Shown here piece by piece: positions 24,374-63,027 of a DNA stretch of 64,000 nt. This DNA is from Candidatus Sulfopaludibacter sp. SbA3 (GTDB lineage Bacteria; Acidobacteriota; Terriglobia; Bryobacterales; Bryobacteraceae), in NCBI GenBank assembly GCA_945861625.1, contig CAMAVI010000006.1:1-64000 (forward strand). Reading direction: 5' to 3'. The notes below the pieces were generated by a model that worked only from the letters and a program-made list of their open reading frames with translations, did no database searches and was not told where the DNA came from. Every line of letters begins with the position of its first letter. Positions within the stretch are counted from its first letter, which is position 1. The translations under genes were made by a program, and so were the position numbers.

Positions 24374-25588
24374 CTATGCGTGCAGAGCGGCCTCAGTCGC
24401 CATCTTACCGGCGGACACAATCTTACCGCCTTTCTCAACAACCGCGAGGGCCACGGCGCGGGACTCCCGGTCAATCTCCAGCACTTCTGATACCGAACCT
24501 GGTTCCCGTACGGGGACACGCTCCATGGTCTCGGCAATGGTGGCGGCGATCGCCGGATAGGAAATGCGCCCGGTCAGAAAGGCCTCCACCGCAATCTCAT
24601 CGGCGGCATTCAAAGTACACGTAGCCGAACCCCCCGCTTCCTGCGCGGCGTAGGCCAATCTCAGCAGTGGGAACTTATGGAAGTCGGGCGGATCGAAGGT
24701 CCATTGGGAGGACCGCGTCCAATCCAATCGCGGCACGGGAGCGTCGGCGCGTTCCGGATAGGTCAGCGCATACTGAATCGGCATGCGCATGTCGGTGGCG
24801 GATACCTGAGCGACCACGCTGCCGTCAGCGAACTCCACCATGGCATGAACCTTGGATTGCGGATGCACTACCACTTCTATTTCTTTCGGCGCGAGATCGA
24901 ATAACCAACAGGCCTCAATCACTTCAAATCCCTTATTCATCAGGGTCGCCGAATCAATGGTAATTCTCTGCCCCATCTTCCAGGTTGGATGATGCAAAGC
25001 CTGCTCGGGCGTCACCTTTTCCAATTCCGCCGCGGGGGTCTGGCGGAACGGCCCGCCGGAGGCGGTCAATATCAGTTTGGCCACTTCTTTGCGGAGTCCC
25101 GCGCGGAAGCACTGGTGCGCCCCATTGTGTTCGCTATCCACGGGGATCAATTCAGCGCCCGACGCGCGCATTGCCTCCGTAACGAGCTTCCCGCTGGCGA
25201 CCAAAACCTCTTTGTTTGCAAGGCCTATGCGCTTCCCCAGGCGTACCGCGGCGTAAGTAGCTTCCAAGCCTTCCACGCCTACGATAGCTGACATGACGAA
25301 GCCAGCCTCTGCCGCGGCCGCCGCATCGATGCGGGCCTGCCGGCCGCTGGCCAGCTCGGGCACCGGCGTACCGTTGGCGGTGAGAATAGCTCGCAGCTCG
25401 TTTAGGGCGGCGTCATCGGCCACAACCGCCACCCGCGGTTTGAACTCAGCGATCTGTTGGGACAGAAGCTCAACATTGCGGCCCGCCACCAACGCGTAGA
25501 CACCAAACCGGCCGGGCCAGCGGCGCACCACGTCCAATGTGCTGGTGCCGATAGAGCCGGTGGAGCCCAAAAGCGTGAGGTAAGTCAC
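24374..25588 (-). CDS. dxr: 1-deoxy-D-xylulose 5-phosphate reductoisomerase
   Basis: A 404-aa protein starting at a GTG (25586-25588) with GGAAAAGA upstream. The motifs are TLLGSTGSIGTSTLDV (NADPH binding), NKEVLVASG, PVDSEHNGAHQC (metal and substrate binding), TASGGPF, TPEQALHHPTWKMGQRITIDSATLMNKGFEVIEA, and HPQSKVHAMVEF. This is the second enzyme of the MEP isoprenoid pathway. It heads the leftward run dxr-rseP-galE-small protein-multicopper oxidase-TolC-like, all closely spaced. Confidence 0.96.
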   Translation of the reverse strand: MTYLTLLGSTGSIGTSTLDVVRRWPGRFGVYALVAGRNVELLSQQIAEFKPRVAVVADDAALNELRAILTANGTPVPELASGRQARIDAAAAAEAGFVMSAIVGVEGLEATYAAVRLGKRIGLANKEVLVASGKLVTEAMRASGAELIPVDSEHNGAHQCFRAGLRKEVAKLILTASGGPFRQTPAAELEKVTPEQALHHPTWKMGQRITIDSATLMNKGFEVIEACWLFDLAPKEIEVVVHPQSKVHAMVEFADGSVVAQVSATDMRMPIQYALTYPERADAPVPRLDWTRSSQWTFDPPDFHKFPLLRLAYAAQEAGGSATCTLNAADEIAVEAFLTGRISYPAIAATIAETMERVPVREPGSVSEVLEIDRESRAVALAVVEKGGKIVSAGKMATEAALHA

Positions 25589-60064: not shown

Positions 60065-61702
60065 ATGAGACTGGGCGAGATCCTGATCAAGCGGCAACTG
60101 CTTTCCGGCGATGACCTGGATCGCGCGCTGGAATTGCAGCGCGAACGCGGCGACAAGCTGGGGAAGATCCTGGTGGATCTCGGCTTCGTCGCGGCGCGCG
60201 ATGTGCTGACGGCCCTCGCCGAGCAGTTGCAAGTTCCCATTGTCTCGATTGACGGTCCGCCCGCCGTTTCTCCGGAAACCGAGACGCTTTCTCCCAAGTT
60301 TTTGCGCCAATACCGCTGCCTTCCCGTGGCGCTGCACGATCACACGGTGACGTTGGCCATGGCCGATCCGTTGGATTTCGAAACCCGCTCGACGGTGGCA
60401 TCTTGCACCGGACTTAAAGTGAATCCGGGACTGGCCTCCGAGCAGGAAATTCTTGACGCGATCGATCGCTACTACGGCCAGACCCAGAAGAACGAGACGG
60501 AGCTGGCGGCGCCCACCGGCGAGACGAATGAAGATCTTGAGCACTTGCGGGACATGGCCAGCGAAGCGCCAGTCATCCGCTTGGTCAACGCAATGGTGGC
60601 GCAGGCAGTGGAGAAGCGCGCCAGCGATATTCATATCGAGCCGTTCGAGAAAGAATTTCGCGTCCGCTTTCGCATTGACGGCGTCTTGGTGAATCAGGAC
60701 TCGCCGCCGCGCGATTTGAAAGCCGCGGTGATCTCGCGTGTGAAACTAATGGCGCGCCTGAATATTGCCGAGCGCCGTTTGCCCCAAGATGGCCGCATTA
60801 AGGTCAAGACCATCGGCCGCGAGGTCGATCTCCGTGTTTCGACGCTGCCCACGCTCTATGGCGAAAGCGTCGTCATGCGTTTGCTCGATCGTTCGGCGGG
60901 CGATTTTTACGATCTGGAGCGCCTGGGTTTCGACAAGCACATGTTGGATCGCATGACGTACTACACGTCGCTTCCGCATGGCATTTTTATGGTGACGGGG
61001 CCAACCGGCAGCGGCAAGTCCACGACTCTTTATTCCGCGCTGAAGCGAATCAATCAAAGCGACAAGAAGATCATCACCATTGAAGACCCGGTGGAGTATC
61101 AGATGGACGGCATCAATCAGATCCATGTAAATCCGCAGATTGGGCTGACCTTCGCGTCGGGCTTGCGCCACATCGTGCGTCAGGACCCGGACGTCATCAT
61201 GGTCGGCGAAATTCGCGACCGCGAGACGGCGGATATCGCGATCCGTTCCGCGCTCACCGGCCATTTCGTGTTTTCGACGCTGCACACCAATGACGCTCCT
61301 AGCGCGATTCCGCGGCTCACCGACATGGGCGTCGAGAATTACCTGATCACGTCGTCTCTCGTGGCGGTGCTGGCGCAACGGTTGGTGCGCGTGATCTGCA
61401 GTGGTTGCAAGACTTCCGCCGGTACGGCTTTGACTCCGGAAGGCGAATCGATCCCGGTGTTCCATGGCGCGGGTTGCGACCAGTGTTTCGGCACCGGCTA
61501 CCGGGGCCGCGTCGGCATATTTGAGCTGATGGAATTGAACGAGGAACTGCGCGGGGCGATCATGCGCAATGAGGATGCCGGCAAGCTCACCGCCATTGCG
61601 CGGCGCTACGGCATGGTCAATCTCCGCGAGGACGGCTGGAATAAGGTGCGGCGCGGCGTGACCACCGCGAGCGAAGTCCTGCGCGTGACGCAAGAGTTCT
61701 AA
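60065..61702 (+). CDS. gspE: Type II secretion/pilus assembly ATPase GspE
   Basis: A 545-aa protein starting at the ATG at 60065; the longer track ORF overlaps the upstream gene. The N-terminal MshEN domain (MRLGEILIKRQLLSGDDLDRALELQRERGDKLG) is followed by the ATPase. This has Walker A GPTGSGKST, Asp box ITIEDPVEYQMDGINQI, Walker B PDVIMVGEIRDRETADIAI, and the His box HTNDAPSAIPRL. A tetra-Cys zinc knuckle (CSGCK, then CDQCFGTGYRGRVGIFE) marks the GspE/PilB family. It powers pseudopilus or pilus assembly. It lies in the ECF operon and is separated from gspF by an inverted repeat. Confidence 0.95.
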   Translation: MRLGEILIKRQLLSGDDLDRALELQRERGDKLGKILVDLGFVAARDVLTALAEQLQVPIVSIDGPPAVSPETETLSPKFLRQYRCLPVALHDHTVTLAMADPLDFETRSTVASCTGLKVNPGLASEQEILDAIDRYYGQTQKNETELAAPTGETNEDLEHLRDMASEAPVIRLVNAMVAQAVEKRASDIHIEPFEKEFRVRFRIDGVLVNQDSPPRDLKAAVISRVKLMARLNIAERRLPQDGRIKVKTIGREVDLRVSTLPTLYGESVVMRLLDRSAGDFYDLERLGFDKHMLDRMTYYTSLPHGIFMVTGPTGSGKSTTLYSALKRINQSDKKIITIEDPVEYQMDGINQIHVNPQIGLTFASGLRHIVRQDPDVIMVGEIRDRETADIAIRSALTGHFVFSTLHTNDAPSAIPRLTDMGVENYLITSSLVAVLAQRLVRVICSGCKTSAGTALTPEGESIPVFHGAGCDQCFGTGYRGRVGIFELMELNEELRGAIMRNEDAGKLTAIARRYGMVNLREDGWNKVRRGVTTASEVLRVTQEF

Positions 61703-61704
61703 TG

Positions 61705-61800
61705 AAAAACCCGGGACAGTACACTCAAACACCATTTTCGCTCTCGTTGCGAACCCAAGGTCCCGGCCGGAAATTGGTGTTTGAGTGTACTGTCCCGGGT
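61705..61800. repeat. 96-bp inverted-repeat element (REPIN/MITE-like) between gspE and gspF
   Basis: Perfect 28-bp arms, AAACCCGGGACAGTACACTC (plus 8 more bases) at 61705-61732 and its complement at 61773-61800, flank a 40-bp centre. The GGGACAGTACACT/AGTGTACTGTCCC core is like the REP-type repeats that RAYT (REP-associated tyrosine transposase) proteins move in other bacteria. The right arm runs into GGGTTTTT, so the hairpin can also act as a terminator. No direct target duplication is obvious. Confidence 0.92.
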
Positions 61801-61815
61801 TTGGGTTTTTAGCGT

Positions 61816-63027
61816 ATGGCGACGGCGTATTTCTTCAAAGCGGTGGCGGCGGACGGAAAACTCCGCACCGGCACGCTGTCCGCCGAGACTGACAAGCAGG
61901 TCGCGCAGGAACTGAAGCGCCAGGGCCTGATTCCCGTCTACGTGGGCCTGGAGCAAAAGGCCGGCCTTACGCTCAACTTGCCGGCGTTCAACCGCGGCAA
62001 GCGCCAGGATGTTCTGTTTTTCACGCAAGAGCTTTCGACGCTGCTCAACGCCGGCGTGCCGGTGGATCGCGCTCTGTCCATCACCGCGGAACTCACGGAA
62101 CGCCCCAACTTCCGCTCCCTCGTGCTCGATGTGCTCCGGCTGATCAAAGGCGGCAAGGCGCTGGCCGACAGCCTGGCGGCGCATCCCGAATGTTTCTCCG
62201 AACTGTACGTGAATATGGTGCGTGCCGGGGAAGCCTCCGGGTCGCTGGGCCAAATCTTCGAGCGACTCGCTGAGTTTGAGCGCACGCGCGACGACCTGCG
62301 TGGCTACATCATCAGTTCGCTCATTTATCCCGGCCTGCTTACGTTGGTCGGTTTTGGCTCCATCATCGTGCTGCTGGAATTTGTGGTCCCGCGCTTTGCC
62401 GTGATTTTTTCCGATCCGCGCATGACCATTCCCGCGCCGACACTCATGTTGCTCACCGTGAGCCGCTACCTTCAGCAGTACGGCCTATTTGCCTTAGCCG
62501 GTACGGTTGTGGCCGTGATCGCCTTTGTCAGCTACATCCGGACGCCCGGCGGCGCCTTGTGGTGGGACGCGTTCCGCCTGCGGCTTCCCGTGCTTGGTGA
62601 TGCCCTGCGCAAAGCCGAAACAGCGCGTTTTGCGCGAGCCATGGGAACTCTGGTTGCAGCCAGCGTGCCATTGGTGCAATCCATTGGGATTGCGCGGGGA
62701 ATTCTCAACAACCGGCGCATCGCAGGTTCGCTCGAGCGCGTGATACAAGGCGTTAAGCGGGGCGAAGGTCTTGCCGGACCGATGACCAGGGCGGGCGAGT
62801 TTCCTCCTCTCGCGGGACATCTGTTGGCGGTGGGCGAAGAGACCGGACACCTCGATACCATGTTCGTCCGCATGGCCGACATCTACGACAACGAAACGCG
62901 CACGGCCATCCGGCGCTTTACGTCTTTGTTTGAACCCCTCATCATCTTGGTCATGGGTTTGTTGATTGGAACTTTGATTTTGAGTCTGATGCTGGCGATC
63001 ACGAGCATCAATGATATTGCCGGCTAG
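61816..63027 (+). CDS. gspF: Type II secretion inner-membrane protein GspF
   Basis: A 403-aa protein of the GspF/PilC family. The N-terminal cytoplasmic domain has VLFFTQELSTLLNAGVPVDRALSI, two T2SSF repeats follow, and there are three membrane helices (about 170-195, 218-240, 372-395). The second repeat has ETARFARAMGTLVAASVPLVQSIGIARGIL and LAVGEETGHLDTMFVRMADIYD. It is the membrane platform for pseudopilus assembly. The upstream inverted repeat left only weak ribosome-binding sequence before the ATG (GGGTTTTTAGCGT). Confidence 0.95.
   Translation: MATAYFFKAVAADGKLRTGTLSAETDKQVAQELKRQGLIPVYVGLEQKAGLTLNLPAFNRGKRQDVLFFTQELSTLLNAGVPVDRALSITAELTERPNFRSLVLDVLRLIKGGKALADSLAAHPECFSELYVNMVRAGEASGSLGQIFERLAEFERTRDDLRGYIISSLIYPGLLTLVGFGSIIVLLEFVVPRFAVIFSDPRMTIPAPTLMLLTVSRYLQQYGLFALAGTVVAVIAFVSYIRTPGGALWWDAFRLRLPVLGDALRKAETARFARAMGTLVAASVPLVQSIGIARGILNNRRIAGSLERVIQGVKRGEGLAGPMTRAGEFPPLAGHLLAVGEETGHLDTMFVRMADIYDNETRTAIRRFTSLFEPLIILVMGLLIGTLILSLMLAITSINDIAG

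Follow-up and report, generated by a model that had tools for sequence, protein, structure and literature searches.

A probable REPIN-like mobile palindrome between gspE and gspF, linked to a RAYT-type transposase, in a Bryobacterales genome

Introduction

TIRtrons, which consist of RAYT-like genes with long inverted repeats (TIRs) carrying the common motif GGGGWSAS, belong to the less-studied repeats and are known from other Acidobacteria, namely Koribacter, Terriglobus and Granulicella (PMC3733652). The class 3 TnpA-REP of Acidobacteria have atypical repeats, about 600 in Solibacter, while in REPtrons the gene is static and short copies disperse (PMC6006769).

The locus reported here lies in a 3.82-Mb Bryobacterales (Acidobacteriota) genome, in a window (the whole stretch of DNA analysed, 64 kb) where a palindrome separates gspE from gspF. 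This palindrome is very probably a non-autonomous, REPIN-like mobile element in which the terminal repeat of the only RAYT-type (TIRYT) Y1/HUH transposase in the genome occurs twice, the second copy inverted, mobility being judged from presence and absence between species alone. It would extend transposase-linked mobile palindromes to the Bryobacterales lineage, where the transposase, the repeats, empty sites and a site both shared and deleted are all at hand.

Results and Discussion

Structure of the palindrome

The element comprises the following features:
61707..61734, + strand: left arm, AAACCCGGGACAGTACACTCAAACACCA; a 25-nt version is also found on both sides of the RAYT gene of contig C34
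61713..61726, + strand: near-invariant core, left, GGGACAGTACACTC; its first 12 nt have 27 exact genome copies
61735..61774, no strand: variable centre of 40 nt; its length differs in other copies, several of whose centres align with one another
61775..61802, - strand: right arm, perfect reverse complement of the left arm
61783..61796, - strand: near-invariant core, right, counterpart of the left core
61797..61810, no strand: repeated foot beyond the right core, reading GGGTTT, GGGTTT, TT; an abbreviated example of the shortening arrays described below

The sequence-only reading had described a perfect 28-bp inverted repeat with a 40-bp centre, and pairing confirmed it: 28 consecutive Watson-Crick pairs join 61707-61734 to 61775-61802, and the arms reach 33 nt if one mismatch is allowed. 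The span of 61705-61800 given there thus contained a real repeat but placed each border 2 nt off, while its remark that the centre is no simple loop agrees with the short, weak inner helix found in these 40 nt. The core AGTGTACTGTCCC was found in both arms. The palindrome folds as RNA at -62.7 kcal/mol (z = -8.2) and as single-stranded DNA with z = -8.6, and in neither case did any of the shuffles fold equally well. No Rfam family matched 61400-62100, even at E <= 1, and a terminator consensus scan returned nothing on the + strand and only a weak, spurious site on the minus strand; the 40-nt centre and a T-run offset by GGG depart from the criteria of intrinsic terminators.

Distribution of copies in the genome

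A search of the genome found 27 occurrences of the 12-mer core GGGACAGTACAC and none of its reversed-pattern control; within the window the core is confined to the gspE-gspF site. A mismatch-tolerant search added a diverged single copy on contig C69 and a partner arm on C9. Inspection resolved ten inverted pairs of 51-84 nt end to end (on C1, C6, C9, C19, C20, C44, C63, C82, C100 and C108, that on C6 being the gspE-gspF element), some seven single copies and, on C34, a special pair whose arms stand 790 bp apart. The number of loci is about 17, a low copy number. The centres of several pairs of 64-65 nt align with one another. According to codon-based gene calls trained on the window, all inspected copies are extragenic, seven lying between convergent, eight between co-directional and one between divergent genes, in addition to the transposase locus. 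The exact core gave only unrelated matches in the open literature.

These copies bear on the simplest alternative, that the palindrome is a plain intrinsic terminator, or an unrelated and immobile palindrome, resembling transposase repeats by chance. Its strong stem and T-rich flank would suit a terminator, but the genome-wide copies (27 exact cores against 0 reversed) refute this reading, and it is extremely improbable given also that relatives have empty sites and that the arm recurs on either side of the RAYT gene. The search for further copies and for a REP-associated tyrosine transposase that had been proposed from the sequence thus returned both, and the dispersed copies exclude a repeat unique to this site.

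Regarding neighbouring genes, one pair (L008, on C19) separates an AGGAG site from the start of a rimO-like gene. At the prfA-prmC junction (L010, on C20) the usual prmC start codon is absent and an in-frame ATG is located within the right arm (ATGAGTGTACTGTCCC), from which prmC has apparently taken its start codon, giving the N-terminus MSVLSRIS; an in-frame ATG in the arm means that such inserts can supply start codons.

Symmetry of the arms

Across the ten pairs, arm positions 1-14 (the core) are almost invariant, while positions 15-20 differ between elements and pair within the element in 59 of 60 cells. Four arm types were found, each matching itself (AAACAC, AATCAC, ATTTCG and TGTCC), and since related elements share ancestry, the evidence for co-variation amounts to these four types and not to sixty independent events. 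The outer extensions of the arms are element-specific and often symmetrical. At the element on C44 (L015) the left side carries GCGTAGTAG, which repeats the right flank CTACTACGC in inverted form, and this inverted copy is absent from the Baikal relative; judged by this comparison, the palindrome on C44 is extended into host DNA. Template switching between arms would explain both the matched changes and the symmetrical extensions, and correction by template switching is known at quasipalindromes (PMC7202029, PMC3820800).

The transposase gene

The sole PF01797 (Y1_Tnp) gene of the genome is located at C34:25826-26161 and is bracketed by inverted copies of the same arm at 25469 (+) and 26258 (-), its stop codon falling within the right arm. 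In the encoded protein the HUH motif reads PNHVHL and the Y motif YVERNP; the protein scores 37.3 bits against PF01797 (above the cut-off of 23) and 74.2 bits against NF047646 REP_Tyr_transpos (E 9.4e-21), just below the curated cut-off of 80. In the Baikal Bryobacterales relative G061 this gene (L156, 82% identical) occupies the corresponding position but has lost its 5' part and the left repeat, which suggests that the transposase gene stays in place and decays while short copies scatter, in line with the description of REPtrons (PMC6006769). Among 77 named RAYT relatives with enough flank, drawn from many phyla, 58 have flanking inverted repeats above those of shuffled flanks, many with cores of the GGGGACA type.

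Two element sites are common to the genome studied here and G061. At one of them the former has a single 20-nt hairpin (GGGACAGTACACTCTGTCCC, L007 on C17) and G061 a full pair (L316); by this comparison the single is a central deletion product of the full pair.

A transposase gene with inverted ends resembles a 790-bp insertion sequence, and with central deletion occurring as on C17, the short palindromes might be passive, immobile remnants of an ordinary insertion sequence of the IS200/IS605 type from which the centre was deleted. This is quite unlikely, for IS200/IS605 elements are without terminal inverted repeats (PMC2817692), the mutually alignable centres of the 64-65 nt pairs indicate that short forms spread as units, and the full-length gene is found in one copy only.

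The REPIN-like element proposed here would move by a route in which single strands, on the lagging-strand template, fold into a hairpin and RAYT cuts and joins the foot, copies landing in extragenic gaps where they would do little harm. The arms would be kept symmetrical because each could serve as a template for the other (hairpin-templated correction), during transposition or replication.

Foot sequences and terminal arrays

The stem feet of the ten pairs (reading AAACCCGGGACAG...) contain GT[AG]G in none, and feet without GTAG or GTGG exclude a classical REP. The GGGGWSAS motif reads CGGGACAG here, matching at 7 of 8 positions with the first G changed, and GGGGACAG in relatives (L091, L092). 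The element would be placed with the TIRYT terminal repeats, as a REPIN-like dimer of one, and outside the classical GTAG REPs. The core had earlier been taken for one of the REP sequences mobilised by RAYTs: the RAYT link stands, with the same arms around the gene, and the classical, GTAG-headed REP does not.

Many ends have shortening copies of their own foot just outside the core, running outward. Read towards the core, the array on C1 is AAACCCG, AAACCCGG, AAACCCGGGACAG, and that at L311 of the relative G062 is AGTAAT, AGTAATTG, AGTAATTGGG, AGTAATTGGGGAC (twice). Direct repeats of 7 nt or more shared by the foot and the 30 nt that follow it were present in 18 of 56 Bryobacterales ends (32%, p 2e-11) and in 35 of 89 cross-phylum transposase ends (39%, p 7e-23), against about 3% at control positions, ends from related loci being incompletely independent. 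Every genome match to AAACCC-N1-3-AAACCC falls at such element ends. Loci with foot arrays include L311 around 1552-1620, L013 around 1460-1500, L187, L196, L207 and others.

The array units include site-specific tail bases, which means that the arrays arise locally and rules out a second, independently inserted element as their source. Where the transposase ends of this genome and the Baikal genome are orthologous, their arrays differ, each being homogeneous, which suggests turnover after insertion. A first guess at their origin would be polymerase slippage at the hairpin base, a known process (PMC4134008). A more speculative and rather doubtful reading is that the arrays are a footprint of the RAYT clade, with the end copied in aborted rounds at the target or by a hairpin-blocked polymerase, which would amount to an unreported end-copying step across phyla. 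A limited literature search found foot arrays reported nowhere. Being significant in two sets of ends, they provide sequence evidence on the fate of RAYT element ends during copying, a question that is still open.

The gspE-gspF junction in relatives

Of the 27 family relatives in which both genes were read, 24 have an intergenic distance of -4 to +18 nt between gspE and gspF. In the same-genus genome G024 the junction is gap-free (TTCTAA followed directly by ATGGCG) and the 12-mer core is absent from the genome; four further element sites are syntenic there with the palindrome absent, one of them having a standard-looking terminator in its place. Other relatives have different inserts at the junction: an unrelated 87-nt palindrome in G034 (L077, CCACAGATGAACACGGATAAACACAGAT...), 511 nt in G030 and, in G062 (L294), a different inverted-repeat insert, some 190 nt long and containing tandem GGAGACA units, into which gspE appears to read after losing its normal stop. 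The junction is one that tolerates palindromes without conserving this one. The proposal of a dispersed, RAYT-linked insert in a tight operon is thus borne out by the copies, the flanked transposase and the empty sites, and a plain terminator shared by all close relatives is excluded, the relatives showing none at the junction.

It has also been considered that the palindrome is a host-adapted regulatory hairpin, retained after insertion for terminating or slowing transcription or for protecting the mRNA upstream of it, whereby it would set the ratio of GspE to GspF or stabilise the upstream ECF-gene message. The RNA hairpin is very stable and stands in an otherwise tight operon, a T-rich tract (GGGTTTTT) follows the right arm, and classical REPs are reported to act in this way (PMC3733652). 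Against this, the + strand is without a terminator call, a strong terminator would silence gspF-gspH, the same element occurs at many unrelated places, and the relatives without such a spacer, together with unrelated palindromic inserts in at least two other lineages, argue against a conserved regulatory role, so that a regulatory hairpin is unlikely. Most likely, the insert between gspE and gspF would be tolerated selfish DNA.

Initiation of gspF

The following features are relevant to the start of gspF:
60065..61702, + strand: gspE (T2SSE, MshEN)
61692..61704, + strand: Shine-Dalgarno remnant with overlapping stop/start, AAGAG-TTCTAATG; many relatives start gspF with AGGAGTTCTGATG
61702..61812, + strand: 36-codon frame through the whole element, MKNPGQYTQTPFSLSLRTQGPGRKLVFECTVPGLGF followed by a stop; possible coupling leader
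61816..63027, + strand: gspF (T2SSF), first possible in-frame start ATG 61816

The first usable start of gspF is ATG 61816 because TAG 61810-61812 lies in frame just upstream. In many relatives the final codons of gspE contain AGGAG, at 5-6 nt ahead of the gspF ATG, and here the insert puts gspF 113 nt from the old ribosome-binding site, in accordance with the displacement of this site inferred earlier from the sequence. The anti-SD duplex energy is weak at the remnant of the old site (-2.4 kcal/mol) and fair at the new gspF start (-5.4 kcal/mol).

A 36-codon frame runs from the old start-like ATG 61702 (TAATG) to the TAG 3 nt before the gspF start, and since it stops so close to the new start, coupling may survive. 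As a coupling leader this frame is plausible, though weakly so and in one genome. As a selected feature it was rejected, an open frame of that length being common in Markov simulation (chance 0.41) and a stop so near the gspF start mildly unusual (about 0.04); the fair anti-SD energy at the new start means that coupling may be unnecessary. Translation of gspF now probably depends on ribosomes that traverse the 36-codon frame and re-initiate 3 nt beyond it, or else on weak independent initiation, and the separation of gspF from the old ribosome-binding site is likely to have lowered output without abolishing it. Inserts of this kind would thereby remodel operons, as with the moved ribosome-binding site of gspF, the prmC start apparently derived from an arm and the gspE stop apparently lost in a relative.

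Comparison with known systems

The matched arms resemble quasipalindromes corrected by template switching, a process which would account for symmetrical arms and for extension into host flanks; it is, however, a replication error process and forms no element family. Regarding the TnpA-REP / Y1 HUH superfamily (PMC6006769), the HUH and Y motifs, the single gene per genome and the flanking repeats are held in common. With REPINs (Bertels and Rainey, PMC3116915) the element shares the inverted repeat pair, variable spacer, hairpin, extragenic location and RAYT linkage, as well as the compensatory changes between arms reported there, while differing in being GTAG-free, in arms that are nearly fully complementary and in numbering about 10 pairs rather than hundreds. 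TIRtrons likewise have a RAYT-like tyrosine transposase flanked by long, GTAG-free inverted repeats, and their TIRs are dispersed too, as singles, dimers or clusters (PMC3733652); the present element differs from them in its core CGGGACAG, its Bryobacterales lineage and its documented compensatory arm changes and foot arrays.
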